A stretch of 64,000 nucleotides of DNA from Streptomyces sp. GS7. Its GTDB lineage: Bacteria > Actinomycetota > Actinomycetes > Streptomycetales > Streptomycetaceae. Below, in pieces: positions 22,263-42,339 of this stretch. The stretch is taken from NCBI RefSeq assembly GCF_009834125.1, contig NZ_CP047146.1:4023501-4087500 (forward strand), written 5' to 3'. How positions within the stretch are numbered: the first letter of the stretch is position 1; the number at the start of each line of letters is the position of its first letter. The notes under the pieces are model-generated. The model did not search any database. It was not told the DNA's origin and worked only from the letters and a program-made list of their open reading frames with translations. A program made the position numbers and the translations under genes.

Positions 22263-22619
22263 ACAGGCCGGGCGGAGGCACCCCGACAGCCCGACGAGGG
22301 AGCCCCCGACGCCTGGCTCGTCTTCGGCGTCCAGTACGTCCCCGCCCTGGACGGCCTCACCCCGGGCACCGACGCACTGCTGCTCACCTGGCTCGACCGC
22401 GCCGACCGCGACACGCTCTCGGTCCACCCGCGCGGCAACGCTGCCCTTCCGATCACCGGCGTCTTCGCCACCCGCTCGCCCGACCGCCCCAACCCGATCG
22501 GCCTGCACACCATCCGCATCCTGTCCGCCGCCGGCCCGCGCATCCACGTCCGCAACCTCGAAGCCCTCGACGGGACCCCGATCCTGGACGTCAAGCCCAT
22601 CCTCACGCCCCACCGCTGA
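22236..22619 (+). pseudogene. 5-prime truncated TrmO (tRNA t6A37 N6-methyltransferase)
   Basis: A frame without any start codon reads CPIGHVESALTGRAEAPRQP, then GAPDAWLVFGVQYVPALDGL and FATRSPDRPNPIGLHTIRIL, ending in LDGTPILDVKPILTPHR. This is the TsaA/TrmO family, whose SAM-binding signature includes the R-S-P-x-R-P-N-P-I-G loop. The stop TGA is at 22617-22619. The first beta strand begins abruptly inside TetR-derived sequence and the frame closes upstream at about 22190, so the native start has been lost. Confidence 0.8.
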
Positions 22620-22725
22620 CCGGACACTTCCGACCCTGTGGTGATGAGTTCTCCGTCACTGCCCTCACATCGGCGGCCTCTGGAGGCTCATCCGGGTGAG
22701 CCTTGACGAGGGGATGGAGTGACAG

Positions 22726-22896
22726 GTGAACGAGAACGAGCGGTTGGCCGAGCACTTCGAGCGGGAGCGCCCGCGGCTGCGTGCGGTGGCCCATCGGATG
22801 CCGGGTTCTGTGGCGGAGGCCGACGACGCGGTACAGGACGCCTGGCTTCGGCTGAGCCGGTCCGACGAGACCGCGGCGGTGCCTTCCTGGAGCTGA
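22726..22896 (+). pseudogene. ECF sigma factor, N-terminal fragment
   Basis: From GTG 22726 the frame reads ENERLAEHFERERPRLRAVA, then HRMPGSVAEADDAVQDAWLR and LSRSDE, and stops at 22896. This is the sigma region 2 start of SigJ-like ECF factors (region 2.1-2.2 with the EADDAVQDAWLRL helix). All later regions are absent, so this is a 56-residue stub that cannot act as a sigma factor. Confidence 0.8.
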
Positions 22897-23678
22897 AGCG
22901 AGCAAGGAAGGTCGCTCCGAACCACACGCGATTCCACCCGTCCGTACGCGAAACCCTCGGATCGCTGCTGCGTATGGATGCACATCCGTCCTTCGAGCTC
23001 TGCGCGTTCGGCGCCTGGGCAGGCGCCACGTAGCACAACCCGGCTATGCAGACGGTGAGTTGGCTCGAATTGGGTACGGACAGTTTGTCCGCGCACACTT
23101 TGCCCCCGGGCCTGATCGGCGGCGGCCAAGCCGTCGACCTTCCAGATGGCCACCCCGAGAGTCATGCCTGCACGTTGTTGTAGCCGTGGTCCATCGCCTT
23201 CTCGATCACGGTGCCGGACGCGGTGAAGGACGGTGCACCGACCAGCCGGTCCTGGTCGTCGGAGGGGGTGAGGGTGAGGCTGACGCCGGCCATCGACTCG
23301 GCCATGGTGTGCCCGGCCAGCCGGTGGGCGGCGGCCTCGTGGGAGGTTTTCGACGTGCCGTCCAGGCAGTCCAGCAGGGAAGCCCCCACCATCCCGTGGC
23401 GAGTTCGTCGCGCAGGGCGTCCTGCGGACGACCGTCAGGCAACTGGCTTGAAACCGATGTGCGGAGGGAACAGGCCGCCGCGAAGCCGCTGATCGTCCCG
23501 GAGACGGTGGTCAGCGATCGCGGAAGGGTGTTCCTCTCGTACCAGCGGGCTCCGGCGTCACGTCACGGGCCCGGCGCGGTAACTCCCCGCCTCGGAAAGG
23601 ACCTTGCGCCCCCCGGCAGTCCTGGCCAGAGCCGTCCCGTTGCTCCTACGATGCCAGGGAACAGGAGGGGGATTCGAC
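22897..23678. other. Decayed stretch with an integrase scrap
   Basis: No intact gene is supported over this 780-base stretch. A minus frame at 23162-23392 (GASLLDCLDGTSKTSHEAAA, then GTVIEKAMDHGYNNVQA) is fairly protein-like but belongs to no family I recognise; it may be a broken gene. A transposase scrap on the plus strand is listed separately. Confidence 0.4.
23450..23550 (+). pseudogene. Fragment of a DDE integrase/transposase core
   Basis: The frame reads ETDVRREQAAAKPLIVPETV and continues VSDRGRVFLSYQ. The pattern (A/K)P-x-IVPET-x-V-x-D-x-G-x-x-(F/Y)-x-S matches the strand carrying the second aspartate of Mu/TnsB-like rve integrase cores common in Streptomyces. Only about 33 codons survive. 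It marks past transposon activity just left of the accessory operon at 23679. Confidence 0.5.
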
Positions 23679-24629
23679 GTGGTACAGCGTGTGGGACGGG
23701 TGGAGTTCGGCGTCGCCTGGGTGATCAGAAACCTGGACGGGCTCGTCGCCGTGGGGCTCGGCCTGACCATCGGCCTGTTGCACATCTTGAGCGACGTCAT
23801 CAGCGACAAGGTGTCGTCGGGCGCGACGCTGCTGGTGCTTGGCACGCTCGCGGTCGGCTCGTTGACGGAGAGGGTGCGCCGCAAGTCCGACATCGAGGAG
23901 GCATCCGCGGACACCCGCCGCGCCCTGGAGGACCTCGCCATGGTCCGTTCCCTCTCGGGGCACCAGGTCGGCGACGCGCTGGAACGGGCCCGCGCACAGA
24001 CCAACCGGTGGTACTTCAAAGGCGGCACGGGCACCTACCTGCGCGCTGTCACGCTGCCCCGCTGCGTCGAGACCGCCACCCGCCAGCGCGCTCAGCTCAG
24101 CATCAAGATCGACATCATCAACCCGGCGGACGAGCATGCCTGCGCCGCCTACGCCCGCTTCCGCCAGACCTTCGCCCGCCGCCGCAACGACGACACGGCA
24201 CACGCCTGGACCGCGGACCGCACGCGCAAGGAGGCGTACGCCACGGTCCTGGCCGCCTGCTGGTTCCGTCAGCGGCTCGACACCCTGGAGATCAGCGTCC
24301 ATCTCTCCTCGGGTGTCCCCACCCTCCGCTTCGACCTCTCCGAGTCCTGCCTGATCATCACCCAGGACGACCCGAACCGCGTCAACCTCCTGGTCGCCCG
24401 CGACCAGCCGCTCTACGACTACTACGTCACCGAGCTGCACCAGAGCCGCGAACAGGCCGTTCGCCTCGACCTGCGCGGCGTTGCGCCCCTGGGCGACGAG
24501 CCGACCGTCGACGAGGTCCGCGCGGCCTTCGACGACGTCGACCTCCCCCTTCCCTCGGTGCTCAGCGACGCCGACGTCGCGGAGATCATCGAGAAAGCCC
24601 TGCACGCTGAGGATCCCTACCGGAGGTGA
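23679..24629 (+). CDS. Two-TM protein with C-terminal domain of unknown function
   Basis: The protein is 316 residues from GTG 23679, chosen because AGGAGGGGG lies 9 bases upstream. Residues 20-60 form two hydrophobic segments (LDGLVAVGLGLTIGLLHILS, then GATLLVLGTLAVGSL). A charged helix follows (RKSDIEEASADTRRALEDLA), then a soluble domain of about 215 residues with RWYFKGGTGTYLRAVTLPRC, IKIDIINPADEHACAAYARF and LYDYYVTELHQSREQAVRLD. I do not recognise the domain. A short 2TM anchor plus a cytosolic domain is a layout used by membrane effectors of nucleotide-signalling immunity systems, but that is only analogy. It is first of three tightly packed genes with the cupin-like and IMPase-like proteins. 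Confidence 0.8.
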   Translation: MVQRVGRVEFGVAWVIRNLDGLVAVGLGLTIGLLHILSDVISDKVSSGATLLVLGTLAVGSLTERVRRKSDIEEASADTRRALEDLAMVRSLSGHQVGDALERARAQTNRWYFKGGTGTYLRAVTLPRCVETATRQRAQLSIKIDIINPADEHACAAYARFRQTFARRRNDDTAHAWTADRTRKEAYATVLAACWFRQRLDTLEISVHLSSGVPTLRFDLSESCLIITQDDPNRVNLLVARDQPLYDYYVTELHQSREQAVRLDLRGVAPLGDEPTVDEVRAAFDDVDLPLPSVLSDADVAEIIEKALHAEDPYRR

Positions 24630-24648
24630 GACGCCTCCGGCGCGGCTC

Positions 24649-25308
24649 ATGGACTACGACACGCTCGACCGACTGCTCCGGCCCGGCGCCCCGGGGGAGG
24701 CACCCCGCGCCGGCGTCGCCGACGCCCTGGAGGACATCGCCTGCGGCAAAAGGGAGTTACGCGCGGTCCGGCACCCGCTCGGCTTCCTGTGCCTGCCGCT
24801 CGTCCGCGACGGCGTCCGCGGCGTCTGCGTCCACCTCTTCGGCACCGGCATCCACGCCGACCCCACCGCCGCCCCCATGCACGCCCATAGCTGGGAGCTG
24901 CGCAGCTACGTCCTCTACGGCCGGGTCGGCAACCTCCCGGTCGCCGTGACGGAGGAGGCGCGCAGCCCCACCCACCGGATCTTCGAGGTCTTCAGCGCTC
25001 CCTCGGGCGTCGACGAACTGCGGCCCACCTCCCGCCTGGTGCACTGCGAACCGGGCCCCGCCGTCTCCAGTGGCAGCGGCGAGACGTACAGCCTGCCGGC
25101 CGGGGAGTTCCACGCCACCGTCGTCGCGCGCGGGCAGCCCGCCGCCACCTTGGTGCTCGGCCGGTCGCTGCCCGGCTATACCGACCTCTCCCTGGGCCCG
25201 CTGCACGGCCGCGGCCACCGTACGGTGCGCCGGCGGTGCGGCGCGGAACACACCGAACGGACCGTCCGCACAGCACTCAGGAGGATCCATGCCGAGCAGC
25301 GCGACTGA
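24649..25308 (+). CDS. Cupin-like protein
   Basis: The protein is 219 residues from ATG 24649, only 19 bases after the preceding stop. The core PTAAPMHAHSWELRSYVLYG followed by RVGN resembles a cupin/cysteine-dioxygenase-type beta barrel: H-x-H then a glutamate in motif 1, and a later histidine in LPAGEFHATVVARGQPAATL as motif 2. A metal-binding role is therefore plausible. The first 60 residues are helical, with VADALEDIACGKRELRAVRH. Its last 20 bases overlap the next gene, indicating translational coupling. The reaction is unknown. Confidence 0.65.
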   Translation: MDYDTLDRLLRPGAPGEAPRAGVADALEDIACGKRELRAVRHPLGFLCLPLVRDGVRGVCVHLFGTGIHADPTAAPMHAHSWELRSYVLYGRVGNLPVAVTEEARSPTHRIFEVFSAPSGVDELRPTSRLVHCEPGPAVSSGSGETYSLPAGEFHATVVARGQPAATLVLGRSLPGYTDLSLGPLHGRGHRTVRRRCGAEHTERTVRTALRRIHAEQRD

Positions 25309-26131
25309 CCGGGACGTCGCACCGTACGCGAGCGAGACGCGGGTGGCCGTCGCCGCGGCGGAGGAGGCGGGGGCCCTGCTGCGCAGCCGCTTCGGCGCGG
25401 CGCGCGCGGTGGGCGTCAAGGATGCCGGGGGCGACGTCGTCACCGACCTCGACCTGGCCGCGGAGAAACTCATCCTCGCCCGCCTCCAGACGCACTTCCC
25501 GCGCGACCGGATCCTGTCCGAGGAGGCGGGCCTCCTCGACGCCGTCGGCCGCCGCACCTGGCTGGTGGATCCGCTCGACGGCAGCAACAACGTCGCGATC
25601 GGCCTGACCGCGTACGCCGTCGGCATCGGGCTGTGCGTGGACGACGCGCCGGTCGTCGGCGTGGTGCACGAACCGGTCACCGGCTTCACCTGGCGGGCCG
25701 TCCGCGGACAGGGCGCGTCCTGCGGCCTCGACCGGCTGCTGGGCCCGTCCGGCGCGGTGCCGCGCAGCGGGCCGGTGGTGGCCTGGACCCAGGGCCACGC
25801 GGTGGGCCGGACCGACCCGGTGGCCACAGGGCTGCGGAGCCAACTGGAGAGCAGTGCCCGGCGGGTGCTCCAGTTGTGGGCACCGCTGCTGGGCTGGAGC
25901 ATGCTGGCGCGCGGTGCGATCGACGGCTTCGTCGGCTACCGCGCGGAGGGCATCGACTTCCCCGCGGGCGCCCTGCTGGCCGCCGAGACGGGCGTGGAGT
26001 TCCGCACCCTGGCCGGCGGCCCCTTCACGGTGGGCTCGGGCGGCCCGGACACCGACCGCAGCTTCGTCGCCGCCCGCGGCGACACCCTGACGTTCCTGCT
26101 TGAGATGGTCGCACGCGCGCGGGTCGCCTGA
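25289..26131 (+). CDS. Inositol monophosphatase-fold phosphatase (CysQ/SuhB-like)
   Basis: The protein is 280 residues from ATG 25289 with CAGGAGGA just upstream, inside the end of the cupin-like gene. The lithium-sensitive, magnesium-dependent phosphatase signature is present in order: DAGGDVVTDLDLAAEKLILA (D-x-x-T-D), ILSEEAG (metal-binding glutamate), and LVDPLDGSNNVAIGLTAYAV (the D-P-x-D-G-[ST]-x-N motif). The late motif is WSMLARGAIDGFVGYRAEGI followed by DFPAGALLAAETG. Possible substrates are inositol phosphates or 3-prime-phosphoadenosine 5-prime-phosphate. Context with a 2TM protein and a cupin-like protein is not that of inositol or cysteine synthesis. Confidence 0.88.
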   Translation: MPSSATDRDVAPYASETRVAVAAAEEAGALLRSRFGAARAVGVKDAGGDVVTDLDLAAEKLILARLQTHFPRDRILSEEAGLLDAVGRRTWLVDPLDGSNNVAIGLTAYAVGIGLCVDDAPVVGVVHEPVTGFTWRAVRGQGASCGLDRLLGPSGAVPRSGPVVAWTQGHAVGRTDPVATGLRSQLESSARRVLQLWAPLLGWSMLARGAIDGFVGYRAEGIDFPAGALLAAETGVEFRTLAGGPFTVGSGGPDTDRSFVAARGDTLTFLLEMVARARVA

Positions 26132-26152
26132 GCGTGGGCCGGGGGCGGCCGT

Positions 26153-27340
26153 TCACCCCACCGCCAGCGCCACCGTCGCCGCCAGCGTCGCCGTCACGGC
26201 CAGGACGAACCCCGTCCCCATGAAGCGCCGCAGCGGGATGACCGTGCCCTGGCCGCGGCACCGCTCGAACCACAGCAGCGTCGCCAGCGACGCCCACGGC
26301 GTGACCAGCGGGCCGACGTTGGTCCCTATGAGCAGCGCCAGCAGCTGGTGGTAGTTGCCGACCGGCACCGCCGCCTCGCCCGCCATGTAGACCGGCAGGT
26401 TGTTGAGGGCGTTGGACAGACCCGCGCCCACGCCCGCCGAGCGGAGCATGCCGCCGAGGCCGCCGTCCGGCCCGACCGCCGCCGTCAGCAGCGTGTGCAG
26501 CCCGTGCGCGTTCACCGTCTCGACGACCAGGAACATCCCCGGCACCAGCACCAGCAGCCGCCACGGCACCAGCGACAACCGCAGCTCGGCGGGGCGCCGT
26601 ACCGCGAACGCGACGACCACGATCAGCATCGTGGTCAGCGACGCCGACCACAGCGGCACGTCCACGACGAGGATCGCCAGCAGGAAGCCGGCACACGCCA
26701 GCGCGCACACCCGGAACAGCACCGGATCGGCCGGCGCCCGCCGCTCGGGCGGTACGTACCCGTCGTGGCCCCGCCGTCCGCGCCGCCAGTAGAAGCCCCA
26801 CAGGCACGCCATCGTCACGGCGACCGCGGCCAGTTGGGGCGGGCCCATCGTGGCGGCCATCGCGGTGGGGGAGAGCCCGACCCGGTTCGACGCCAGCAGG
26901 TTCGTCAGGTTCGACACCGGCAGCAACAGGCTCGCGGTGTTGGCCAGCCAGACCGTCGTCATCGCCAGCGGCACCGGCGCGATGCCCACCCGCCCGGCCA
27001 GCGCCAGCATCACCGGCGTCAGCAGCACCGCCGTGGTATCCAGGTTCAGCGCCATGGTGGTGACCGACGCGAAGAGCACACACAGCCCGAACAGCCGTGG
27101 ATAGCTGCCCTTTCCGGTCCGCGCCACCCAGGACGCCACCGCGTCGAACACCTCCGCCCGGCCGGTCAGTTCGGCCATCACGATGACCGTCGACAGGAAG
27201 ACCAGCAGCGGCCCGATACGCGCCATCGCTTCCCCGGCGGGCGCGGCAGGCAGCAGCCCCGTGGCCAAACACACCAGGCCGCAGGCGAGCAGCCCGGCGG
27301 CGAGCCAGTCCAGGGGATGCACACGCTTGAGGAATCGCAC
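26153..27340 (-). CDS. Ion transporter of the SLC13/ArsB (IT) superfamily
   Basis: The protein is 395 residues from GTG 27340 (VRFLKRVHPLDWLAAGLLA). Other in-frame starts up to 27484 exist, but the extra sequence is not membrane-like. About eleven hydrophobic segments are seen. IT-superfamily landmarks include IVMAELTGRAEVFDAVASWV, the first-half hairpin VTTMALNLDTTAVLLTPVML followed by TTVWLANTASLLLPVSNLTN, and the second-half repeat SNALNNLPVYMAGEAA with IGTNVGPLVTPWASLATLLW. Such proteins move arsenite, citrate, dicarboxylates or sodium; the substrate cannot be decided. It is convergent with the phosphatase gene (21-base gap) and divergent from the large TIR gene. Confidence 0.85.
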   Translation of the reverse strand: MRFLKRVHPLDWLAAGLLACGLVCLATGLLPAAPAGEAMARIGPLLVFLSTVIVMAELTGRAEVFDAVASWVARTGKGSYPRLFGLCVLFASVTTMALNLDTTAVLLTPVMLALAGRVGIAPVPLAMTTVWLANTASLLLPVSNLTNLLASNRVGLSPTAMAATMGPPQLAAVAVTMACLWGFYWRRGRRGHDGYVPPERRAPADPVLFRVCALACAGFLLAILVVDVPLWSASLTTMLIVVVAFAVRRPAELRLSLVPWRLLVLVPGMFLVVETVNAHGLHTLLTAAVGPDGGLGGMLRSAGVGAGLSNALNNLPVYMAGEAAVPVGNYHQLLALLIGTNVGPLVTPWASLATLLWFERCRGQGTVIPLRRFMGTGFVLAVTATLAATVALAVG

Positions 27341-27559
27341 GCCCGCAAGCGTCGCACACGCGGCCGGACGGGGAGGGGGAGAGCGGGGCCAGGGGTTCGA
27401 CTCCCGGCCGTCGCGGAAGGTCGCACGGCCCGCGCCGGACGTGCCCCAGCTGCCCATTCGCACCCCAACACCCGTATCGCTCATACTCTTTGACAGATAC
27501 CTCGCCTGATCCTTTCAATCGCCCTGCCCTGCCCTCCCCCGACCTCTTACGATGGGGAC

Positions 27560-30500
27560 ATGGTGACTGACGGGGAACTGCTCGGCCGGACACGTGACTT
27601 GGACTTCTTCATCAGCTACTCGCCCGCCGACGAACAATGGGCGTCCTGGATCGCGTGGACCCTGGAGGAAGCCGGGTACCGCACCGTCATCCAGGCGTGG
27701 GACTTCGTCGCCGGCACCAACTTCATCGACTTCATGGACCGCGGTGTCAGCGAATCCGTCGCCGTCATCGCCGTCCTCTCCGGCCACTACGGCCGCTCCA
27801 CCTACGGCCGCATGGAATGGCAGGCCGCGCTCCGCGCCGAACCGGAGCAGCCCGAACGCAAGCTGCTCACCGTCCGCGTCGAGGACGTCCCCATCGAGGG
27901 CCTCCTCGCCACCATCACCTACGTCGACCTGGTCGGCGTCCCCGACGCCGCGACCGCCCGCAGCATGCTGCTCACCCGTGTCGGCCAGGCCGTCGAGGGC
28001 CGCGCCCGCCCCGGCCGCCGCCCCGGCTACCCCGGCTCCGCCACCGCCAGCGGCTCCTTGCAACTGCCCGGGCCCGCCACCGCCGCCGACGACCGGCAAC
28101 GGCCGCTCGGCCGTACCGGCTGGTCCGGCCGCCGCCGCCCCGCCCGGGCGCCCCGCTACCCGCAGGCTCCCGGTGCGGCTCGCGACCAGGGCGCCCTGAC
28201 GGTCCTGCACCTCGCCGGCCCCGACTTCGGCCGCGGCCGCGAACCCGACGCGCTGCGCCGGGAGATCCGCGGCGATCTCGTCGAGCTGAAGGACGCCGGC
28301 GCCCCGGCGCCCGACCTCCTCGTCGTCACCGGTGACCTCACCGCCTCCGGCAGCCCCCGCGAATGCGACCAGGCCCTCAGCTTCCTCACCGGGCTGCGCT
28401 CCCAGCTCGACCTGCCGCCGCAGCGGGTCATCGTCGTCCCCGGAAACCAGGACGTCAGTCAGGCTGCCTGCCGCGGATACTTCCACACCTGCGAGGCCGA
28501 CGAGATCCCGCCGCAGCCCCCGTACTGGCCCAAGTGGCGCCACTACACCCGCCTTTTCCGAGGCCTCTACGAGGGCCTCGACACCGTCTTCGACAGCGAC
28601 CAGCCCTGGACCCTCTTCCCGGTGCCCGAACTCCACACCGTCGTGGCCGGGTTCAACTCCTCCATCGCCGCCAGCCACCGCCCCGACGACCAGTACGGCT
28701 TCCTCGGCCGCGACCAGGCCGCCTGGTTCGCCGAGGCACTGCGCGGCTATGAGGAGGAGGGCTGGCTGCGCATCGGCGCGCTCCGCCACCCGCTCACCGG
28801 CCGCCGCCGCCCCCAGGACGCCCCCGGCGGCCCCGGCACGCTCCGCGACGTCGACACGTTCACCCGCCTCGCCGCGCCCCGCCTCCACTTCGTCCTGCAC
28901 GGCCCCAGCGGCGGCCCCCGCACCACCGGCGGCGAGCCTGCCCACGACCACCTGCCGCTCCAGAACGGCACCCTGCCGCTGTACGGTTCGGTCGCCCCCG
29001 CCCGGTTCGAGCTGCTGCGCGTCACCGCCGACGGCGTCACCCGCTGGACCGGCGACGGTGGCACCGAACCGGCTGTCTTCCCCGTCGCCTGGCACGGCGC
29101 CGGACGGATCTTCACCCGGCCCGGTGACCCCGCGGCCTCGCCCGCCGCCGTCCCGCCCTCCGACAACCGCGCCGTCGACGAGCCCGCCGACTCCCTCGCC
29201 GAACGCGTCAAGGAGGTCTGCCGCGCTCGCCAGGAAGGCGTCCGCCTCCGCGACGTTCCCCGCGCGGCCCCTGACGACCTCGCCCAGATCATGGTCACCT
29301 GGAGCGATGAGGGCGTCGTACGCCAGCACCGCATCGCCGTCCACCCCGGCACCCCCACCGACGCCGAACTCGACCGCTTTCTCGCCCAGGCCCACGCCAC
29401 CGACACCGGTTCCGAGGCCGAGCTGGTCCACGACGGCCCGCCGCCCGAGCAGTCCCTGCGCGAACGCGCCGGGCGCCGCGGCGTCCGCGTCCGCAGCTTC
29501 CTGGAGTTCCAGGGCCTCCTCGACCTGCGCACCTACGTCACCGCCCAGACCGCCCAGCTGAGCAACGACGACCGCTACGCCCCCGACCTCTACCTCCCGC
29601 AGCGCTACCGCGACGCCGAACGCCCCGACGCCGACGAGCGAGACAACCTCGTCGAAGCCATGCTGCAGCTGCTGGAGACCGACCACGGCCGCTTTCTGCT
29701 GCTCCTCGGCGACTTCGGACACGGCAAGACCTTCGCCCTGCGCGAGCTGGCCCGCCGCATACCCGAACGCCTCCCGCACCTCACCCCGCTGCTCATCCCG
29801 CTGCACACCCTCGACCGCGCCCACAGCCTCGAAGGGCTCGTCGCCGCGCACCTCGCCGGCCACGACGTCGACACCATCGACCTGCGCGCCCTGCGCTACA
29901 TGCTCGGCCAGGGCCGCGTCGTCCTCCTCTTCGACGGCTTCGACGAACTCGTCAACCGCGTCAGCTACGACCGCGCCGCCGACCACCTCCAAGTCCTCCT
30001 CAACGCCGCCGTCGACAGCGCCAAGATCGTGGTCAGCAGCCGCACCCAGCACTTCAAGTCGCACGACCAGATCCTCACCGCTCTCGGCGAACGCGTCGGC
30101 CTGCTCCCGCAGCGCCGCATCCTCGCCGTCGAGGGCTTCGTCCCCGAACAGGTCCGCGCCTACCTCGTCAACCGCTACGGCGACGAGGAGACCGCCGACC
30201 GCCGCTTCGAACTCCTCGGCAACATCCCCGACCTGCTCGCCCTGTGCGCCAACCCCCGGCTGCTCAGTTTCGTCGCCGACCTCGACCCCGACCAGCTGCG
30301 CGCCGTGGCGGGCGCGGGGCGCGCCCTGAGCCCCGCCCGGCTCTACGAGGACGTGTTCACCGCCTGGCTCGCCCACGAGGAACGCCGCGGTCAGGGCGGC
30401 CCCGGCGCCGCCCCCGGCCTCACCCTCGACCACCTCTGGGCCGCCGTCACCGCCCTCGCCCGCCGCCTGTGGGAGACCGGCCGCAACGCCCTGCACCTCG

Positions 30501-33379
30501 ACGAGCTGACCGACACCGTCGCCACCGCCCTCGCAGGACTCGCCGGCACCACCCTCACCACCCAGGAGAGCGCCCAGGCCGTCGGCGCCGGAAGCCTGCT
30601 GATCCGCACCGACGACGGCCTGTTCCAGTTCATTCACGGCTCCGTCGTCGAATGGCTGATCGCCCGCGAGGCCGCCGACCGCCTCGCCGAAGGCGACAGC
30701 ACCCTGCTCGCCGCCCGCCCGCTGAGCGCCCTCGCCGTCGAGTTCTTCTGCGACCTCGCCGACCACGACCTCAGTACCGCCTGGGTCCGCACCGTCCTCA
30801 ACGCCCCCGGGCCCGGCGTCAGTGACGCGGCCCGCGCCAACGCCGTCCGCGTCATCGACCGGCTCCGCGTCCCCGCCGGCGCCGACCTGCGTGCCGCCCG
30901 TCTCTCCGGCGAGGACCTCTCCGGCCGCGACCTCTCCGGCGTCGATCTCACCGGCGCCGACCTCACCGACACCCGCCTCATCGGCGCCAACCTCTCCGGC
31001 GCCGTGCTGCGCGACACCCGCCTCAACGGCGCCCGCCTCGACCACGCCGACCTCTCCGGCGCCGACCTCTCCGGCGCCGACCTGCGCGGCGCCCGTCTCA
31101 CCCGCGCCGACCTGCGCGGCGCCCGCCTGACCCGCAGCCGCTGGCACCGTGCCGCGCTCATCGACCCGCTCACCGACCCGCAAGTCCGCGCCGCCCCCGA
31201 ACTGCGTACCGCCGCCCTCGCCCCCGGCATGCCCGTCGAGGTCGGCTTCCGCCCCGCCGCCGTCGGCGTCCCGTACGGCTTCGACATGCGCACCAGCCGG
31301 CTGCCCGAACCCGTCTCATACAGCCCCGGGGGCGAACTCCTCGCCGTGGGCACCGAGGACGGCGGCGTGCTCGTCTGCGCCGCCGACACCGGCCGCGCGC
31401 TGCGCACTCTGCACGGCCACGAAGGCCGCGTCTACGCCGTGAAGTTCCGCTCCCGGGTCCTCGCCACCGGCAGCTCCGACGGCACCGTACGCCTGTGGGA
31501 CCCGGTCTCCGGACGCCAGCTGCACCGCCTGGACGTCCACCCCGGCGGCGTCTGGCCGGTCTCCCTCGACGACGCCGGGACCCTCGTCGCCACCGGCGAC
31601 GCCGACGGCCTGGTCACCCTCTGGGACACCGCCACCGGCGAACCGCTGCACCGGCTCCCCGGCCACACCGCCCCCGTCTACACCGCGGTGTTCAGCGCCG
31701 ACGGGCACACCCTCGTCACCGGCGACGCCGCCGCCAACCTCCGCATCTGGGACACCCGCACAGGAGAGTGCACCGGCAGCCTCGACGGCCACGAAGGCGC
31801 CGTGTTCCGCGCCCGGTTCAGCCCCGACGGCACCCTCCTGGCCACCGGCGACCACGGCGCCGACGGCCACGGCACGGTCCGCGTATGGCACCTCGCCGAC
31901 CGCCGCCTGCTCCACACCTTCACGGGCCACACCGGCCGCGTCTACACCCTCGACTTCCACCCCGAGGGCGTCCTCCTGGTGAGCGGCGACACCGACGGCC
32001 AGGTCCGGCTGTGGGACCCGGTCGTCGGCGCCCCCGCCGGAGCCCTGGAGCGGTGCACCGGCGCCGTCTACCAGGTGATGTTCGGCAACGGCGGACGACT
32101 CCTCGCCGCCTGCGACAGCGACGGCACCGTCCGCCTGTGGCGCGTCGCACTCTCCGGCGGCCACCGCGCCATCAGCCTGCTGCGCCAGCAGCCCGTCGAA
32201 CACCGCGGCTCCGCCTGGGCCTGCCGCTTCCGCCCGCAGGACAGCCAGCTCGTCACCGTCGGCAACGACGGCGGCGCCCAGATCTGGAACGCCGACACCG
32301 GCCAGGGCCAGCGCATCCTGCGCGGCCACGGCCGCCGGGTCAACACCGTCGCCTTCAGCGCCGACGGCACCCGCCTCGCCACCAGCGGCAACGACGGAAT
32401 CGTCCGTCTCTGGGACGCCCACACCGGCCGCCGTACCGTTGAACTCACCGGCCACGGCGACCGGTTGGTCTCCGCGGTCTTCAGCCCCGCCGGACCGCTA
32501 CTCGGCACCGCCAGCAACGACGGCGACGTCTACCTGTGGAACGCCGTGACCGGCGAGTACCTCCGCGAGATCGACGTCGAAACCGACCACACCTGGGCCG
32601 AGGCGTTCAGTGTCGACGGCACGCTGCTCGCCACCGCCAACGACGACGACTCCGTGCGCCTGTGGTGGCGCGCCACCGGCGCCCATGTCGTCACCCTCGC
32701 CGACCACCGGGGCCGGGTGCGGTCCATCGCCTTCCGCGGCGACGGCACCGCCCTCGCCACCGGGTGCGACGACGGCCGGGTCCGCCTCTGGCACCAGGAG
32801 AGCGGCCGCCTGGAGGCCGAACTCGACGGCCACGACGACCGCGTATACGCCGTCGCCTTCGGCTCCGACAGCGACTGGTTGGCCAGCGCCTCCTGGGACG
32901 GCACCGCCGTCATCTGGCGCGACGGCGCCCCCCGCCATGTCCTGGCCGGACACCACGGACGGCTCTGGACGGCCGTCGCCCACCCCCGGCTGCCGCTGCT
33001 CGCCACCGCCGGCGACGACCGCGTCATCTGCCTCTGGGACGCCCGCACCGGCACCCGCACCGCCCGCCTCACCGGCCACACCGGGCGTGTCTTCTCCCTC
33101 GCCTTCAGCCCTGACGGCACCCGCCTGGCCAGCGGCAGCGAGGACGGCACGGTCCGCCTGTGGAACGTCCCCGCACCGGACGGCCAGCCCGCCCTGCACG
33201 CCACGCTCATCGGCGTCCCCGGCGGCTGGGCGGCGCTGACCCCCGAGGGCGGCTACAAGTACGAGGGCGAGGTGACCGGCGAGTTCTGGCACGTCGTCGG
33301 CATGGCCCGCTTCACCCCCGGCGAACTGGACGAGTATGTTCCCGGCGTCCACCGCCTCCCGCTCGACGCGGAGTTGTGA
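27560..33379 (+). CDS. TIR / pseudo-phosphoesterase / NACHT / pentapeptide / WD40 conflict protein
   Basis: A single 1939-residue protein. Residues 12-150 form a TIR domain (LDFFISYSPADEQWASWIAW) with a glutamate (E86 in YGRMEWQAAL) at the usual NADase position. Residues 212-500 resemble a calcineurin-like phosphoesterase, but key metal ligands are changed: HLAGPDFG instead of HxSDxH, VPGNQDV instead of GNHD, LHGPSG instead of GHxH; only TGDLT (D259) is normal. A NACHT-type NTPase follows, with Walker A GDFGHGKT (717-724) and Walker B VVLLFDGFDEL (D792). About 17 pentapeptide units (A/D-L/x) span 1110-1195. About 15 WD40 repeats (LWD ends) span 1250-1875, enough for two seven-blade propellers. 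This is the architecture of STAND/NACHT conflict or immune sensors: propellers sense, NACHT oligomerises, TIR degrades NAD or makes a signal. Role in defence is inference. Confidence 0.93.
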   Translation: MVTDGELLGRTRDLDFFISYSPADEQWASWIAWTLEEAGYRTVIQAWDFVAGTNFIDFMDRGVSESVAVIAVLSGHYGRSTYGRMEWQAALRAEPEQPERKLLTVRVEDVPIEGLLATITYVDLVGVPDAATARSMLLTRVGQAVEGRARPGRRPGYPGSATASGSLQLPGPATAADDRQRPLGRTGWSGRRRPARAPRYPQAPGAARDQGALTVLHLAGPDFGRGREPDALRREIRGDLVELKDAGAPAPDLLVVTGDLTASGSPRECDQALSFLTGLRSQLDLPPQRVIVVPGNQDVSQAACRGYFHTCEADEIPPQPPYWPKWRHYTRLFRGLYEGLDTVFDSDQPWTLFPVPELHTVVAGFNSSIAASHRPDDQYGFLGRDQAAWFAEALRGYEEEGWLRIGALRHPLTGRRRPQDAPGGPGTLRDVDTFTRLAAPRLHFVLHGPSGGPRTTGGEPAHDHLPLQNGTLPLYGSVAPARFELLRVTADGVTRWTGDGGTEPAVFPVAWHGAGRIFTRPGDPAASPAAVPPSDNRAVDEPADSLAERVKEVCRARQEGVRLRDVPRAAPDDLAQIMVTWSDEGVVRQHRIAVHPGTPTDAELDRFLAQAHATDTGSEAELVHDGPPPEQSLRERAGRRGVRVRSFLEFQGLLDLRTYVTAQTAQLSNDDRYAPDLYLPQRYRDAERPDADERDNLVEAMLQLLETDHGRFLLLLGDFGHGKTFALRELARRIPERLPHLTPLLIPLHTLDRAHSLEGLVAAHLAGHDVDTIDLRALRYMLGQGRVVLLFDGFDELVNRVSYDRAADHLQVLLNAAVDSAKIVVSSRTQHFKSHDQILTALGERVGLLPQRRILAVEGFVPEQVRAYLVNRYGDEETADRRFELLGNIPDLLALCANPRLLSFVADLDPDQLRAVAGAGRALSPARLYEDVFTAWLAHEERRGQGGPGAAPGLTLDHLWAAVTALARRLWETGRNALHLDELTDTVATALAGLAGTTLTTQESAQAVGAGSLLIRTDDGLFQFIHGSVVEWLIAREAADRLAEGDSTLLAARPLSALAVEFFCDLADHDLSTAWVRTVLNAPGPGVSDAARANAVRVIDRLRVPAGADLRAARLSGEDLSGRDLSGVDLTGADLTDTRLIGANLSGAVLRDTRLNGARLDHADLSGADLSGADLRGARLTRADLRGARLTRSRWHRAALIDPLTDPQVRAAPELRTAALAPGMPVEVGFRPAAVGVPYGFDMRTSRLPEPVSYSPGGELLAVGTEDGGVLVCAADTGRALRTLHGHEGRVYAVKFRSRVLATGSSDGTVRLWDPVSGRQLHRLDVHPGGVWPVSLDDAGTLVATGDADGLVTLWDTATGEPLHRLPGHTAPVYTAVFSADGHTLVTGDAAANLRIWDTRTGECTGSLDGHEGAVFRARFSPDGTLLATGDHGADGHGTVRVWHLADRRLLHTFTGHTGRVYTLDFHPEGVLLVSGDTDGQVRLWDPVVGAPAGALERCTGAVYQVMFGNGGRLLAACDSDGTVRLWRVALSGGHRAISLLRQQPVEHRGSAWACRFRPQDSQLVTVGNDGGAQIWNADTGQGQRILRGHGRRVNTVAFSADGTRLATSGNDGIVRLWDAHTGRRTVELTGHGDRLVSAVFSPAGPLLGTASNDGDVYLWNAVTGEYLREIDVETDHTWAEAFSVDGTLLATANDDDSVRLWWRATGAHVVTLADHRGRVRSIAFRGDGTALATGCDDGRVRLWHQESGRLEAELDGHDDRVYAVAFGSDSDWLASASWDGTAVIWRDGAPRHVLAGHHGRLWTAVAHPRLPLLATAGDDRVICLWDARTGTRTARLTGHTGRVFSLAFSPDGTRLASGSEDGTVRLWNVPAPDGQPALHATLIGVPGGWAALTPEGGYKYEGEVTGEFWHVVGMARFTPGELDEYVPGVHRLPLDAEL

Positions 33380-33382
33380 GAC

Positions 33383-34110
33383 ACGTCGGCCTCCTCCGGG
33401 ACCAGCTGCCCCTTGTTCTCGCCCTTGCGGACCCAGCCGTCGGCGATGCGGCCCTGGGCAAGTCCGTTCTGCGCGGCGGAGAGATGCTGGCGGGCGAGGC
33501 GGCGGGCGGTGTCCTCGGAGGACTTGAGCGCCATTACGCACATCATGCGGGCCAAGTGGCGATCGCTGTCGTTGACGAGGTTCATGCGGCCGCCAGTGGT
33601 GCCTGTGACGGGACGCTTGACGTATTTCGACGATGTCGATGAGGTCTTCGAGGTCCCGCGGCTGGCGGACGAGGCGGTCGAGGTCGTAGAAGATGACGCC
33701 GTCGATAACGCCGTGTGCGAGGTCGGCGAGGAGCAGTCGGAACTCGGGTCGCAGGACGATCCAGTCGATGGCGCCGTCGGGCTTGACGACTGATCCGGTC
33801 GATGGCGCCGTCGGGCTTGACGACATCGCGCTTTTTGAACGCTGAGGTGTCGTTCTCCCGGTAGATCTTCGCGGAGGGGCCCCAGCGTAGGCGGGTTCGG
33901 CTGTCTTCGGCGTCTTCGAGCTGGCGGTCGACGCCTGCTTCGAAGCCGAAGCGGTCGGAGGAGATGCGGAGCTAGGCGCCTGGGCGTTTCGGGGCGTACG
34001 CGGCCAGGTGGTCGTGGAGGTCGAGGGTGACCTGGCCTCCCCGGGCGTGTGCGGGAACGTCGAAGTCGTCCCAGACGGCTGGGGCTGTGGTCGGGGCGGT
34101 GGACACGGTG
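33383..34110 (-). pseudogene. Decayed serine recombinase (resolvase domain)
   Basis: Read across frames on the minus strand: RISSDRFGFEAGVDRQLEDA, KIYRENDTSAFKKRDVVKPD, then GVIDGVIFYDLDRLVRQPRD and LEDLIDIVE. In another frame follow GTTGGRMNLVNDSDRHLARM, LKSSEDTARRLARQHLSAAQ and VRKGENKGQLVPEEAD. These are the catalytic resolvase domain and the start of the recombinase domain of a large serine recombinase. A stop precedes LRISSD, at least two frameshifts occur (one at the tandem duplication 33765-33824), and the C-terminal half is gone: the relic ends four bases from the stop of the TIR-NACHT gene. Confidence 0.8.
33765..33824. repeat. 26-bp direct duplication inside the recombinase relic
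   Basis: TCGATGGCGCCGTCGGGCTT plus GACGAC at 33765-33790 is repeated exactly at 33799-33824, a period of 34 bases. The extra 34 bases shift the recombinase frame, so this duplication is one of the inactivating lesions. Confidence 0.85.
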
Positions 34111-34229
34111 TCGGCTCCTGGTGCTCGTCGGCTCCGATACCGGGCACTGTCCGTCGCACTCAGGGGTTTGGGGGTGCCGTGGATCCGCTGTAGGACCCGC
34201 GCCCGCCCGGGTGGATACTGACCACCACC

Positions 34230-34376
34230 ATGCGCATCGACTTTGATCCCGCTGACATGTCCCGCAACGAGTTCTACAGGCTGCTGACCGCGACGGTGGT
34301 GCCACGGCCGATCGCCTGGGTGTCGACCTACGATCCATACAGTGATTCAGCGAACCTTGCCCCTGCGAGGTTCTGA
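34230..34376 (+). pseudogene. Flavin reductase family, N-terminal fragment
   Basis: From ATG 34230 the frame gives MRIDFDPADMSRNEFYRLLT, then ATVVPRPIAWVSTYDPYSDS and ANLAPARF, and stops. This is the conserved start of flavin reductase-like FMN-binding split-barrel proteins (R-P-I-A-W-V-S-T ... N-L-A-P). Normal proteins are about 200 residues; here only 48 remain. The following 34377-34655 region has no supported gene, though a frame there (AYHQQTKNLLASHSPRQCGS, minus strand) could be transposase debris. Confidence 0.75.
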
Positions 34377-34655
34377 GGAAAGTGGTACCGGCCTGGGTGA
34401 CGTTGGCCCGGGTGAGAGAGCTCGGCAATGACCGGCAGTGAGCCGCACTGCCTCGGTGAGTGGCTCGCCAGCAGGTTCTTGGTCTGTTGGTGGTACGCGA
34501 CCTCCCCCTACTCCGACCTGCCGCAACGGGTGGAAATGCCCGATGTGAAGCCGAGTTGGTCCGCACCTGGCCCGGATCTTGGTACGTGGTGCCGGCGGGG
34601 GGAGCTTCCCGCGGTACTCCATGGCAATGTTGCGGCCGCCGTCCAGCCACCCGGG

Positions 34656-36935
34656 TCAGCCCGACTTCGGCGGCTTCTGCGCGTCGAAAGCGAACAGTGT
34701 GTTCTTGGCCGCGGCCACGATCACCGCACGCCCCGCAAGAGTCACCCGCGGGCTTGCGCCCGACCCGCCCGTCAAACCATCGGCCTGCGGATCTGTTGTC
34801 CACAGGGGTTTGCCATCGTGCGGCGACAGCGCGACCACCCGGCCGGTGGCCGAGCTGAAATACAGTGTGTCGGCTCCCGCAACAGGACCCGACGCGCCCT
34901 CCACGCCAGTCTGCCGCGACCACTTCTGCCGGCCGGTCGCGGGGTCGAGTGCTGTGACGAGACCGGTCTGCCCGCTCACGTAGACGGTGTTGTCCGCCAT
35001 CCCGGGCGTCCCTGCGTATGTCTTGGCCAGTCGGGAGTACGTGACCTTCCGCGAGGCCGGGTCGACCTGTGCCACCCCGTTGTAGCCGGCCGGATCCGTT
35101 CCCTCCATGTGTATCTGCAGGAGTACGAGCCTGCCGTAGGCGACGCCCATCGGCACGGCGGGGCCGTTGACCGCGATGGGCCTGCCCAGTGTCCCCGAGG
35201 CGCGGTCGACCGGGTACAGGGTGGGGTGGCGCACCGCAAAAGCATTCACTTCCGCATTCGTCGCGCACATCGCGACGAGCTGTGCGCCCATCGGCACGGG
35301 AGCGCACTGCGTACCCGCAGGGAATGGCGACGTCCATGTGACCTGACCGCTGTGCGCGTTGCGGGCCTCGAAGCGGGAGTTGGAAGCGTCGACCGTCACG
35401 ACGTCGGAGCCGATCACAATGGCGTCCTGAGTCCGATTCGTGACGGCCGTCGACTGGGCGCCGGACGGTACGGACCACAGCTCGCGGCCGTTGTTCGCGT
35501 CGAGGGCCACCACCTCGCTGTGAGGGTCCTTCGGGGCGTCCTGGGCGGCGAAGCGGTAGCCGAGCACCGTGTCGTCGGTGGCGCCCACCAGGTGAATGCC
35601 GTCGACGGGGACGCCGGGGCTCTTCGCCGTCCACACCCGCGAGCCGTCCTTGGCCCTGATACGGGTCGCGACAACACCGCCGCCCCCGCAGAACAGCGCG
35701 TCGCCGTGCGCGACGCAACGCAGTTCGTCGGGGATGTCTGGGCGACCGCCCGGCACGGTCTCGTGCCACGGCTTGAAGCCGTCCGGAAGTGCGGCACCTG
35801 ACGCCGCAAGGCTGTTGCCCTTGTCGCCGCCGCTGTTCCCCCCGAAGCCGCCCGCCGTGAGTGCGGCGACTCCTCCACCGATCGCTGCCACCGTGACCGC
35901 GACCGCGGCCGCGAGCATGGGGCGCCATCGGCGACGCAGTCGGGCGCCGACGGGGGTGTCGGCGCTCCCCGTATCGGGATCGGCCGGGGTGGTGGTCGGG
36001 GTTGCAGGTGTCGGGGTGGCTGGCGTCGGGGTTGCAGGTGTCGGGGTGGCTGGCGTCGCGACGTGATGCTGGGTGATCATGTCGCGGGTGCGGCCCGTGC
36101 CAACGCCGCTCGCGTCGGTCTGGCCGAGGTCGGCCGGCAGGTCCCGTAGCAGCACGAGGAGTTCGTCCGCCGAGGGGCGCCCGTTGGGCTCCTTGGTCAG
36201 GCACGACTCGACGACCGTGCGCAAGGCCACCGGCACGTCATCGAGCGACGGCTCCTCGTGCACCACCTGATACGCAGCTATGTACGGGCTGTCCGCGTCG
36301 AAGGGCCCGTGGCCCGTCGCTGCGTACGCCAGCAGCGTCCCCAGCGAGAAGACATCGGACTGCGGCCCCACACCGCGCGGCGCCTGCAACTGCTCCGGCG
36401 ACATGAAGGGCGGCGTACCGATGACCCGCCCTGTATTCGTCAGTGTCTGCTGGTCCACGGCGCGCGAAATGCCGAAGTCGATGACGCGTGGGCCCTCGGG
36501 CGAGAGCACGACGTTCGAGGGCTTCAGGTCACGGTGGACGACCCCCACCCGGTGGATGTCCCGCAGCGCCTCCGCCAGCCCGATGGCGAGCCTCCTCAGC
36601 TCCGCTCCGCTCAGCGGGCCCTTCGTGGCGATGCGCCGGGCGAGCGTGTGCCCCTGGATATAGGTCGTCGCCATCCACGGCTGCTCGGCCTCAGGGGCGG
36701 CGTCGACCACGGCGGCAGTGAACGCGCCGCTCACCCGCCTCGCCGCCGTTACCTCCCGCTGGAAGCGGATGCGGAACTCGTCGTCCGCCGCGAACTGAGG
36801 GTGGATCAGTTTGATGGCGACAGGTCGCCCCGAACTCGTACGGGCGAGAAAGACCGTGCCCATGCCGCCCGAGCCGAGCCGCGCCTCAAGCGGATAACCG
36901 CCGATCTCGGCTGGATCACCTGCGCGCAGCGACAC
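34656..36935 (-). CDS. Receptor-like Ser/Thr protein kinase with PQQ beta-propeller
   Basis: The protein is 759 residues from GTG 36935; GGGAGG and GGGAAGA precede it. The kinase domain covers 15-275: glycine loop ARLGSGGMGTVFLARTSSGR, VAIKLIHP lysine, catalytic VVHRDLKPSNVVLS, DFGIS, and MSPEQLQA. A proline/threonine linker with (TPATP)n units follows, then one membrane segment MLAAAVAVTVAAIGGGVAAL (about 348-367) and an extracellular PQQ-type propeller of about 370 residues (DGSRVWTAKSPGVPVDGI, LDANNGRELWSVPSGAQS, LDPATGRQKWSRQTG). It is of the PknB/PknD type, in which the propeller senses an external ligand and the kinase phosphorylates cytosolic targets. All catalytic residues are present. 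It stands alone next to an IS element. Confidence 0.93.
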   Translation of the reverse strand: MSLRAGDPAEIGGYPLEARLGSGGMGTVFLARTSSGRPVAIKLIHPQFAADDEFRIRFQREVTAARRVSGAFTAAVVDAAPEAEQPWMATTYIQGHTLARRIATKGPLSGAELRRLAIGLAEALRDIHRVGVVHRDLKPSNVVLSPEGPRVIDFGISRAVDQQTLTNTGRVIGTPPFMSPEQLQAPRGVGPQSDVFSLGTLLAYAATGHGPFDADSPYIAAYQVVHEEPSLDDVPVALRTVVESCLTKEPNGRPSADELLVLLRDLPADLGQTDASGVGTGRTRDMITQHHVATPATPTPATPTPATPTPATPTTTPADPDTGSADTPVGARLRRRWRPMLAAAVAVTVAAIGGGVAALTAGGFGGNSGGDKGNSLAASGAALPDGFKPWHETVPGGRPDIPDELRCVAHGDALFCGGGGVVATRIRAKDGSRVWTAKSPGVPVDGIHLVGATDDTVLGYRFAAQDAPKDPHSEVVALDANNGRELWSVPSGAQSTAVTNRTQDAIVIGSDVVTVDASNSRFEARNAHSGQVTWTSPFPAGTQCAPVPMGAQLVAMCATNAEVNAFAVRHPTLYPVDRASGTLGRPIAVNGPAVPMGVAYGRLVLLQIHMEGTDPAGYNGVAQVDPASRKVTYSRLAKTYAGTPGMADNTVYVSGQTGLVTALDPATGRQKWSRQTGVEGASGPVAGADTLYFSSATGRVVALSPHDGKPLWTTDPQADGLTGGSGASPRVTLAGRAVIVAAAKNTLFAFDAQKPPKSG
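35998..36058. repeat. 30-bp tandem repeat encoding the kinase linker
   Basis: Two full units of GGGGTTGCAGGTGTCGGGGT followed by GGCTGGCGTC plus partial units encode the repeated TPATPTPATP linker of the kinase. The tandem unit can change linker length by slippage in steps of ten residues. Confidence 0.8.
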
Positions 36936-37100
36936 TCTTCCCGACCTCCCGTCCCCCGTGCACCTCTGCCACCACGGGCCTGCGTACCTGTCCTGTACAC
37001 AAACTAGCCGCAGGGCAGTACAGCAGAGCAAAGCGGGTGACGAACAGGGACCCCGGGGCTGCTCCCGTGCCGCACACGACGGAGCCCCGCCAAGAGGAGT

Positions 37101-37200
37101 GCGGATTCCGGAGGTTGGTGCACACCGTGGTCGGTTGATCAGGCCGCGAGGGTGGATTCCAGGGGTTGTTGCCACACGTGGTTGGTTGATCAGGCCGTGA
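37101..37200. repeat. 51-bp imperfect tandem repeat upstream of the kinase
   Basis: Two units each contain GGATTCC (37103 and 37154) and GGTTGATCAGGCCG (37133 and 37184), with a constant 51-base spacing. They lie between the kinase gene and the left end of the IS3-like element. The function is unknown; they could be regulator sites. Confidence 0.7.
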
Positions 37201-37231: not shown

Positions 37232-38099
37232 CTATACGTTGACTCCAGCTGCCGGTCGGGGCTGGTGTTGAGCGTGGTGGTTGGTCTCGTACTCATGGGG
37301 CGGGATGTCGCTGGTCGCGCTGTGGAGGCGCTGGTTGTTGTACCAGTCGACCCATTCCGCGGTGCCGAGCTCGACGTCGGCGAGGCCGTGGCAGGGCCTG
37401 CGGGGTTTGATCAGCTCCGTTTTGTAGAGGCCGATCTGGGACTCCATGAGCGCGTTGTCCAGGGCGTCGCCGGCGGTGCCGATCGAGGCGTCGATGCTGG
37501 CCTCGATCAGGTGCGCGGTGAACGCGAAAGACGTGTACTGCCCGCATCCGAATGATGAACCAGCCCTGGTCCAGCGGGAGTTCCGTGGCCCGCTTGCTGG
37601 TCGCCGCGGACCAGCCGACGATCGCCCGGGAGAACACGTCCACGACGAATGCGACGTAGACGATCCCGGACCAGGTGGCGAGGTAGGTGAAGTCCGCGAC
37701 CCGTCGTTCGTTCGGCCTGGAGGCGGTGAAGTTGCGTTGCAGCAGGTCAGTCGCCCGTTCATGCCCATCGTCGCGCAGGGTGGTTCGGATCTTCTTGTCA
37801 CGACGGGCGCCTTCCAGGCCGAGCTCGCGCATCAGCCGGGCGACCGTGCAGCGGGCCGCGACCATGCCCTCGCGATGCAGCTGCCGCCAGACCTTCCGGA
37901 CTCCGTAGACGCCGTAGTTGTCGGCATGCACCCGACTGATGTGCGCGTTTGGCTCCGTGTCCCGCATCGCGCGGGCGCTGGGAGCGTGGTTCTTGGTGGC
38001 GTAGTAGGTGCTCGTTGCGATCTTCAGTCCGTGGCCGGAGAGCACACGGCAGATCGGCTCGACCCCGAACACCTTCTTGAATTCGTCGATGAACGCTAC
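37232..38099 (-). pseudogene. IS3 transposase OrfB, frameshifted with internal deletion
   Basis: The N-terminal half is readable (ICRVLSGHGLKIATSTYYAT, YGVYGVRKVWRQLHREGMVA, first DDE aspartate in RRVADFTYLATWSGIVYVAF). After KRATELPLD about 30 residues are missing. The second catalytic region VHHSDAGS is followed by a frameshift near 37550, then QYTSFAFTAHLIEASIDASI, the catalytic glutamate region DNALMESQIGLYKTELIK and EWVDWYNNQRLHSA. The catalytic triad is intact in pieces, but no single product can be made. Confidence 0.85.
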
Positions 38100-38424
38100 G
38101 AGCGCTTTGACGGCCGGTCGAGCTCGGCCGCGAAGAAAGCCGACGCCGCCTTCAAGATCTCGTTCGCCCGCCGCAGTTCGGTGTTCTCCGCCTGCAGACG
38201 CTTGATCTCCGCGGTTTCCTCGGACGTGGTGCCGGGCCGCTGGCCCGCGTCCACCTCGGCCTTGCGGACCCAGGTCCGCACCGTCTCGGCCGCACCGATG
38301 CCCAGCTTCGCCGCGACCGCCTTCATCGCGGCCCACTCGGTCGGGTAGTTCGGACGGATCTCCGCGACCATGCGCACCGCACGCTCGCGAAGCTCGGCAG
38401 GGTAAGGGGACGGACGTGCGATGA
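38096..38424 (-). pseudogene. IS3 transposase OrfA with lost start codon
   Basis: Reads IARPSPYPAELRERAVRMVA, then EWAAMKAVAAKLGIGAAETV and RTWVRKAEVDAGQRPGTTSE, and a leucine-zipper-like IKRLQAENTELRRANEILKA. The family start is MARPSPYP; here the first codon reads ATC (38422-38424), so the native ATG is gone. A GTG at 38377 could still give a shorter protein lacking part of the helix-turn-helix. It overlaps OrfB by four bases as usual for IS3 programmed frameshifting. Confidence 0.8.
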
Positions 38425-42201: not shown

Positions 42202-42339
42202 ATCCTCCCGCCACGCCCGCTCCCTTCTGCCGTCGCGCGCCACTGTGACGTCCTGGCCTACGGTCTGGTTCCTGGCCGTTCCTACTCAGATGACGTGGGG
42301 TGTGTTCAGTGGGTGCCGGAACTCACCGCCACCGCCCGG

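Follow-up and report, generated by a model that had tools for sequence, protein, structure and literature searches.

Results

Gene E encodes a large NLR-like protein

We analyzed a 64,000-nucleotide stretch of DNA from Streptomyces sp. GS7 (contig NZ_CP047146.1, positions 4,023,501 to 4,087,500 of the forward strand; hereafter, the window), whose genome is a single contig of 9.07 Mb. The window contains a large gene, E, accompanied on its upstream side by four genes, A to D (Table 1). An earlier description of this DNA, made from its letters alone (the original prediction), dealt with gene E and did not mention the four companions. It claimed that one 1939-residue protein combines TIR, calcineurin-like, NACHT, and pentapeptide-repeat parts with about 15 WD40 repeats. 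All five parts were found when Pfam was searched with the whole protein and with pieces of it, Metallophos weakly (approximately residues 243 to 337; E value 3.4e-5; score 24.8 bits, cut-off 21.5). The count of parts has to be raised to six, as the NACHT-associated domain NA-iREase3 had been overlooked, and the order reads TIR, pseudo-phosphoesterase, NA-iREase3, NACHT, pentapeptide repeats, WD40. The number of WD40 blades was obtained from 16 [LIV]W matches, 14 of which were taken as blade ends (two were removed on spacing), plus one degenerate first blade recognized by eye.

A homologue search with residues 1 to 1240 of E as the query, in which 7988 candidates were scored, returned 758 proteins at E ≤ 1e-10. 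Among the best 120 of the 758, 119 are 1927 to 2023 amino acids long and the remaining one has 1735, which argues that gene E, read from its ATG, is real beyond chance. The named members among them belong to Streptomyces, Kitasatospora, and Embleya, and the nearest protein among the matches listed (96%) is from Streptomyces noursei. The domain order, which had been called unusual, is not peculiar to this gene and belongs to a family, these best 120 being nearly all full length. The window protein and the best 120 homologues were aligned, giving 121 rows.

The TIR domain has the sequence features of a TIR NADase, with a TIR_2 match of 5e-34 and a Glu at position 86, which we take to be the catalytic position of TIR NADases, in 120 of the 120 alignment rows covering it. 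In a weak match (E 0.008), Glu86 also aligns with the glutamate in the 'YEL' motif of a TLR15/TLR2 chain; TLR TIR domains carry this Glu and are not known to be NADases. The check set beforehand for the original prediction, namely whether the N-terminal residues are TIR and whether Glu86 sits where it was said to, thus came out in favor of a TIR domain with an intact-looking catalytic glutamate. Its NACHT NTPase was likewise borne out. Both the Walker A motif (GDFGHGKT, residues 717 to 724) and the Walker B motif (LLFDGFDE, residues 789 to 796) are intact, and K723, T724, D792, and E796 are invariant in 121 of 121 rows. The WD40 repeats, with 13 Pfam stretches, form the C-terminal repeat region expected as the sensor of a STAND/NACHT protein. 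The classification of E as a putative NLR-like (STAND/NACHT) protein with TIR at the effector position is supported by these features.

Table 1. Coordinates of gene E, its domains, and the companion genes A to D in the window
Feature	Coordinates	Strand	Description
Gene E	27560..33379	+	1939 amino acids, six domain types
E TIR domain, residues 16-129	27605..27946	+	TIR_2, E 5e-34; Glu86 codon 27815-27817
E calcineurin-like fold with metal ligands lost, ~residues 211-510	28190..29089	+	Pfam Metallophos and alignment
E NACHT-associated inactive restriction endonuclease domain NA-iREase3 (PF22739), residues 544-656	29189..29527	+	Pfam 8e-40
E NACHT NTPase, ~residues 712-871	29693..30172	+	Pfam 4e-11
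E Walker A	29708..29731	+	within NACHT
E Walker B	29924..29947	+	within NACHT
E pentapeptide repeats, ~residues 1108-1203	30881..31168	+	Pfam 1.4e-32
E WD40, ~15 blades, residues 1251-1872	31310..33175	+	13 Pfam stretches, E 2e-112
E C-terminal tail, residues 1873-1939	33176..33376	+	median identity 0.68 to homologues
Gene A	23679..24629	+	316 amino acids; hydrophobic N-terminal helices and PLD-superfamily-fold domain without conserved His
Gene B	24649..25308	+	219 amino acids; cupin-like; invariant HxHSW and GxFH (three-His site)
Gene C	25289..26131	+	280 amino acids; inositol monophosphatase family (homologues match PF00459); conserved metal-site residues
Gene D	26153..27484	-	ArsB/CitMHS-type transporter, divergent from E; coordinates of the longest open reading frame

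The phosphoesterase domain has lost its metal ligands

The original prediction placed a phosphoesterase-like domain between TIR and NACHT. The calcineurin-like fold stood up, and what had been missed is that the active site is gone. The metal-ligand motifs of calcineurin-like enzymes are DxH, GD, GNH, H, and GHxH. In the alignment the D of DxH is replaced by glycine (G220) in 121 of 121 rows, and no row has His as the H of that motif; at GHxH all 121 rows read GP, and none retains the second His; and GNH is eroded, with N retained in 11 and H in 10 of the 121 rows. D259 and H410 are invariant in this region. The DxH and GHxH motifs of an active calcineurin-like phosphoesterase are thus absent across the 121 rows, and the domain is a predicted pseudoenzyme because DxH and GHxH are lost in every row. 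The same losses separate it from the class III cyclic-nucleotide phosphodiesterase fold of the Rv0805 type (PDB 2hy1). E would contain an enzyme fold that was inactivated in the course of evolution and is still maintained by selection.

E is inherited with four companion genes

We collected the best 80 of 178 stretches encoding an E relative, with up to 10 kb of flank, which together with the window gave 81 loci (L numbers denote loci and G numbers genomes). Clustering of their genes found widely conserved neighbors only upstream of E; among the 25 largest gene clusters shown, none is a conserved downstream partner, apart from lineage-limited ones. More than 4.3 kb of upstream sequence was available in 71 of the 81 loci, and tblastn detected A, B, C, and D in 68 of these, two of the others being without A and one without A and B. 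Gene order and orientation are identical in 67 of the 68 full loci (the exception, L070, carries A-B-C on the opposite side of E), and the gap between C and D is 0.7 to 2.9 kb in nine loci.

Co-occurrence was also seen in genome sets. Of 41 genomes, 7 have E, 5 have A, and 6 have B; A is confined to genomes bearing E, and B was also found, weakly, in G003 without E. Among 150 genomes of the genus, E and A are each present in 11 and both in 10 (Fisher p 1e-13, a value that has to be read with the relatedness of some genomes in mind, as these do not count independently). In G010, the one genome with E but not A, a frame change splits E, and B is missing as well. In 296 genomes of the class, eight of the 13 bearing A have E within approximately 20 kb on the same contig, and in two others A and E fall on separate contigs. 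A lies 10 to 17 kb from the E core in G180, G247, G317, and G352. The cassette thus comprises two blocks, A-B-C and D-E, usually joined: in L116 (G247) and L117 (G352), the two of these four that were inspected, A-B-C is followed by approximately 6 and 12 kb of other genes, respectively, and then by D-E. In L121 (2442-9298, minus strand), A-B-C-E are contiguous on one strand, with C and E head to tail and E starting at the C end; the only D-like gene there is a distant one encoding a different ArsB-like transporter (31 to 34% to D), after E. A-B pairs without C, D, or E in the fetched stretch were seen in three genomes, at L115:8296-9922, L118:8900-10565, and L119:8810-10367, those of L118 and L119 near genes that by eye resemble polA, coaE, and uvrB.

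Two relatives show how the parts are rearranged. At L110 (5265-11027, minus strand), a trypsin-like region (H, D, and GxSGSP motifs by eye) takes the place of the N-terminal TIR and is followed by degenerate phosphoesterase, NA-iREase, NACHT, pentapeptide, and WD40 parts. At L111 (6365-13921), a protein of the order HTH (helix-turn-helix; by eye), TIR, NA-iREase, NACHT is without the phosphoesterase domain. A-like and B-like genes (28 to 31% identity) are divergent to its gene, and a stand-alone metallophosphoesterase gene, its motifs intact-looking by eye, adjoins them and the E relative.

The companion genes and their promoter-like elements

The start of gene A, a GTG with GGAGG upstream, was picked by eye. 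The protein has the phospholipase D (PLD) superfamily fold. PLD enzymes carry the motif HxK(x)4D (HKD); A is without a conserved His in 69 sequences (the best His column reached 52 of 69 rows, and none was invariant or near-invariant in 40 rows) and therefore has no HKD motif. In this, and in its N-terminal hydrophobic segment, A differs from SauUSI, NucT, Nuc, and the DUF1669 domain of FAM83B. In gene B, H53, H55, and H130 are invariant, and no family matched above its cut-off. B resembles cysteine-dioxygenase-like cupins in having an invariant H-x-H and a later H, and some UniRef names read cysteine dioxygenase or cupin; it differs from them in that the Pfam cupin family was matched weakly at best (E 0.05, by one of the two B proteins tested) and no PDB profile was matched. 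Neither A nor B matched solved-structure profiles at E 1. The first 20 bp of gene C lie within the end of B. Its family is indicated by PF00459 matches of 1e-34 to 1e-37 in two homologues (L033 and L080), and the metal-site residues E67, D83, D86, and D212 are at least 97% conserved; every listed NCBIfam equivalog cut-off was missed. The true start of D is probably further in than that of the longest open reading frame (ORF).

The word TACGATG lies 12 bases before the E ATG in the window (27540-27560) and in several relatives, and a CTCCTACGATG-like element also precedes A (window approximately 23645-23660). On this basis E may be transcribed as a leaderless mRNA, and the A and E units may have promoters of a similar kind. 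The word was present before E in 16 of 75 loci and before A in 28 of 68, counts that include close relatives and so are not of independent loci. Together these make 44 of all 51 occurrences on the plus strand of the locus sequence (1.63 Mb); the exact word is missing in 59 of 75 loci for E and 40 of 68 for A, some of which have variants by eye. Between D and E lies a GGTTCGACTCCC that resembles a tRNA T-arm (window approximately 27390-27410). The pattern GGTTCGANTCCC on the plus strand occurs in the window and in one other of the 81 loci (L079, elsewhere). Rfam at the gathering threshold gave no match to an RNA element in 22000-36000.

DNA similarity among relatives spans the cassette, and the sampled flanks are ordinary

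Flanks were compared over approximately 5 kb upstream and 7 kb downstream per locus. Seven relatives at 90 to 94% DNA identity (L019, L020, L021, L022, L024, L025, and L071) are similar to the window from 23446-23615 to 33379-33394, essentially from the A promoter to the E stop codon. Apart from a kinase gene in L022, matches outside these limits were weak or short (L022, 12507-12974, 72%; L025, 34116-34328, 77%). In the L019 genome (S. noursei A-2-1) the setting differs, because the cassette is 94% identical while the flanks match poorly: for 10.3 kb upstream and 5.5 kb downstream, with 40 candidates scored, the best listed matches were 75% over approximately 440 bases and 69% over approximately 730, plus shorter pieces. 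The idea that the cassette is always at a new site is weakened by L022, which shares a downstream kinase gene (34653-36874) with the window at 88% DNA identity and may have the cassette at the same site. No 12-base direct or inverted repeat, as of transposon ends or an attachment site, is common to both cassette ends, and the window has no tRNA gene that could provide such a site.

Directly 3' of E is a decayed serine recombinase (approximately 33400-34159, minus strand; Resolvase PF00239 1.7e-6 in ORF 32498-34159; broken by eye). It is followed on the same strand by a Ser/Thr kinase with a C-terminal PQQ-type propeller (34656-37175; Pkinase 4e-41, PQQ_2 6e-26), which has strong generic matches to the PD-T4-6 kinase models of PADLOC and is the kinase shared with L022. 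The downstream side looks like mobile-element debris because of an IS3-type transposase orfA-like fragment (38096-38377, minus strand) and a tyrosine-integrase-like fragment (41566-42243, minus strand), both recognized by eye.

The original prediction called for a survey of phage-defence-island context. From 153 candidates we sampled 108 flanking ORFs of 180 to 900 amino acids by taking the nearest ones, at most three at each of 37 loci in the range L019 to L063, after six close relatives and all loci numbered above L079 had been set aside. The ORFs came from our own GC model, so some are possibly spurious. No defence island was visible at a PADLOC threshold of 1e-20 in this sample, which has no control set and is not a rate. 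Eleven PADLOC models matched, an adenosine-deaminase type with six members and ten with one member each, seven of the ten being PD-T4-6 kinase models. An invariably housekeeping context, named beforehand as telling against the prediction, was not seen either, because the flanks, although ordinary, vary.

Discussion

We consider it somewhat probable that the five genes form a cassette with the bacterial NLR E as its output, its likeliest role being conflict with phage or another invader, or programmed death. We infer every step by which E might act. Ligand binding by its WD40 propellers would free the NACHT domain from autoinhibition, and NACHT would then bind nucleotide and oligomerize, while the pentapeptide stalk, NA-iREase, and pseudo-phosphoesterase may serve as a rigid scaffold or as ligand-binding adaptors. 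The clustered TIR domains would cleave NAD+ or make an NAD-derived signal, and NAD+ cleavage would stop the growth of, or kill, the cell or hyphal compartment. The linked companion operon of A (predicted membrane-anchored, PLD-like, without HKD), B (cupin-like), and C (of a phosphomonoesterase family) may provide the small molecule or membrane state on which the system depends, detect it, or remove it, with D as a putative transporter divergent from E. The roles of A to D are the weakest step of this explanation.

Several observations weigh against this interpretation. E relatives often occur without A, since the E core is present in 24 and A in 13 of the 296 genomes of the class. Conversely, A-B is present without E nearby in G065 (the A-only genome of the genus set), G307, and G415, and A-B-C in G389, the last three being the A-bearing genomes of the class without linked E; A-B(-C) may thus have a job of its own, and these exceptions count against strict dependence. 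No match to any of A to D was found in the 19 kb fetched around L110. PADLOC gave 0 hits for A, B, C, and D at 0.01 (B and C from L033); for E it gave partial matches to larger models only. The sampled flanks consist of ordinary metabolic, transport, and regulatory Pfam families (first 25 of 78 families shown). Finally, the sensor is conserved about like the rest of E, with a median identity of 0.695 for WD40 compared with 0.77 for TIR, 0.68 for the phosphoesterase region, 0.61 for NA-iREase, 0.75 for NACHT, and 0.75 for the pentapeptide repeats. The ratio of nonsynonymous to synonymous substitution rates (dN/dS) is 0.24 to 0.28 for WD40 versus 0.11 to 0.22 for the other folded domains and 0.29 for the linker and C-tail, none being near 1, so the sensor is not diversifying. 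A fast-evolving sensor is unsupported, and because WD40 is not hypervariable, the proposed recognition of a large ligand has no positive support as far as a fast-evolving phage protein is concerned. The suggestion that E is an immune or programmed-death protein keeps the NLR-like layout with a TIR at the effector position. Patchy distribution, a compact transferable unit, and the N-terminal exchange in a relative agree with a conflict system.

The linkage exceptions could mean that E is a self-contained NLR and that A-B-C-D are neighbors of independent metabolic function moving along by chance. We regard this as the less likely case, though one to be taken seriously: besides the four genomes with A-B or A-B-C and no linked E and the lower count of A in the class, it is favored by the 6 and 12 kb that split the blocks in L116 and L117 and by one strain (L073/L112) that retains a frame-shifted E after loss of A and B. 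It sits poorly with the retention of all four companions in 68 of 71 loci, with A and E together in 10 genomes of a patchy 150-genome set (each in 11), with the contiguous A-B-C-E of L121, and with the A-like and B-like genes still beside the very divergent E of L111. The metabolic look of cupin-like B, phosphatase-family C, and transporter D, the ordinary sampled flanks, and a sensor about as conserved as the rest of E would also suit a metabolic or developmental signaling module in place of an immune one. In such a module B, C, and D would act on a small molecule, be it a thiol, a phosphate ester, or an oxyanion, and E would gauge how much of it is present and signal through TIR chemistry in development or stress. 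A core developmental regulator would not usually be so patchy (11 of 150 genomes), form part of a compact transferable unit, or exchange its N terminus, and we think this reading unlikely.

The TIR domain might instead be an adaptor that recruits other TIR domains and has no NADase activity. Sequence alone cannot distinguish the two, and a TLR TIR, a domain not known to have NADase activity, keeps the same Glu in the alignment. The N-terminal, one-protein effector position of the TIR and its replacement by a trypsin-like, enzyme-type region in L110 suggest a catalytic output, and make an adaptor improbable. We give similarly little credence to an extension in which the NLR circuit is self-contained and has a second-messenger branch: ligand-driven E would cluster its TIR domains and make an NAD-derived messenger, A, membrane-anchored and without the catalytic His, would act as a receptor converting it to a membrane response, C (with B) would destroy or edit the messenger and so reset the switch, and the dead cyclic-nucleotide-phosphodiesterase fold in E would bind nucleotide as a built-in brake. 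If true, an accessory operon would encode the receptor and the off-switch of an NLR together, a layout not found among the papers listed in searches of the open-access literature.

Returning to a conflict or cell-death cassette with E as its output, a search of the open-access literature, judged mostly from listings, gave no paper recognizable as describing the five genes. Bacterial NLR-like proteins and TIR effectors are known already, and the cassette with A to D looks like an undescribed self-destruct or alarm system. Descriptions of bacterial NLRs usually concern single genes, whereas this large TIR-NLR is linked to four companions in a compact, apparently transferable 9.8-kb unit of antibiotic-producing actinomycetes. 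If the companions are needed, the cassette would offer a tractable way to learn how pseudoenzymes and accessory genes help an NLR to sense, fire, and reset.

Kaur et al. 2020 (PMC7159879) treat NTP-dependent conflict systems of multicellular prokaryotes, actinobacterial systems among them, which share with E the TIR and calcineurin-type effector domains and the pentapeptide and propeller repeats. They differ in that their calcineurin domains are predicted phosphodiesterases, and neither 'cupin' nor 'inositol' occurs in the main text of that paper. bNACHT25 is a bacterial NLR-related (NACHT) antiphage protein (PMC12169576), and proteins of this type share with E an NLR-type layout in which a central NACHT joins detection to response. 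E, a putative NLR, differs from them in its WD40 and pentapeptide sensor side, in its linked genes A to D, and in the pair of enzyme domains, both apparently inactive, that separate TIR from NACHT.
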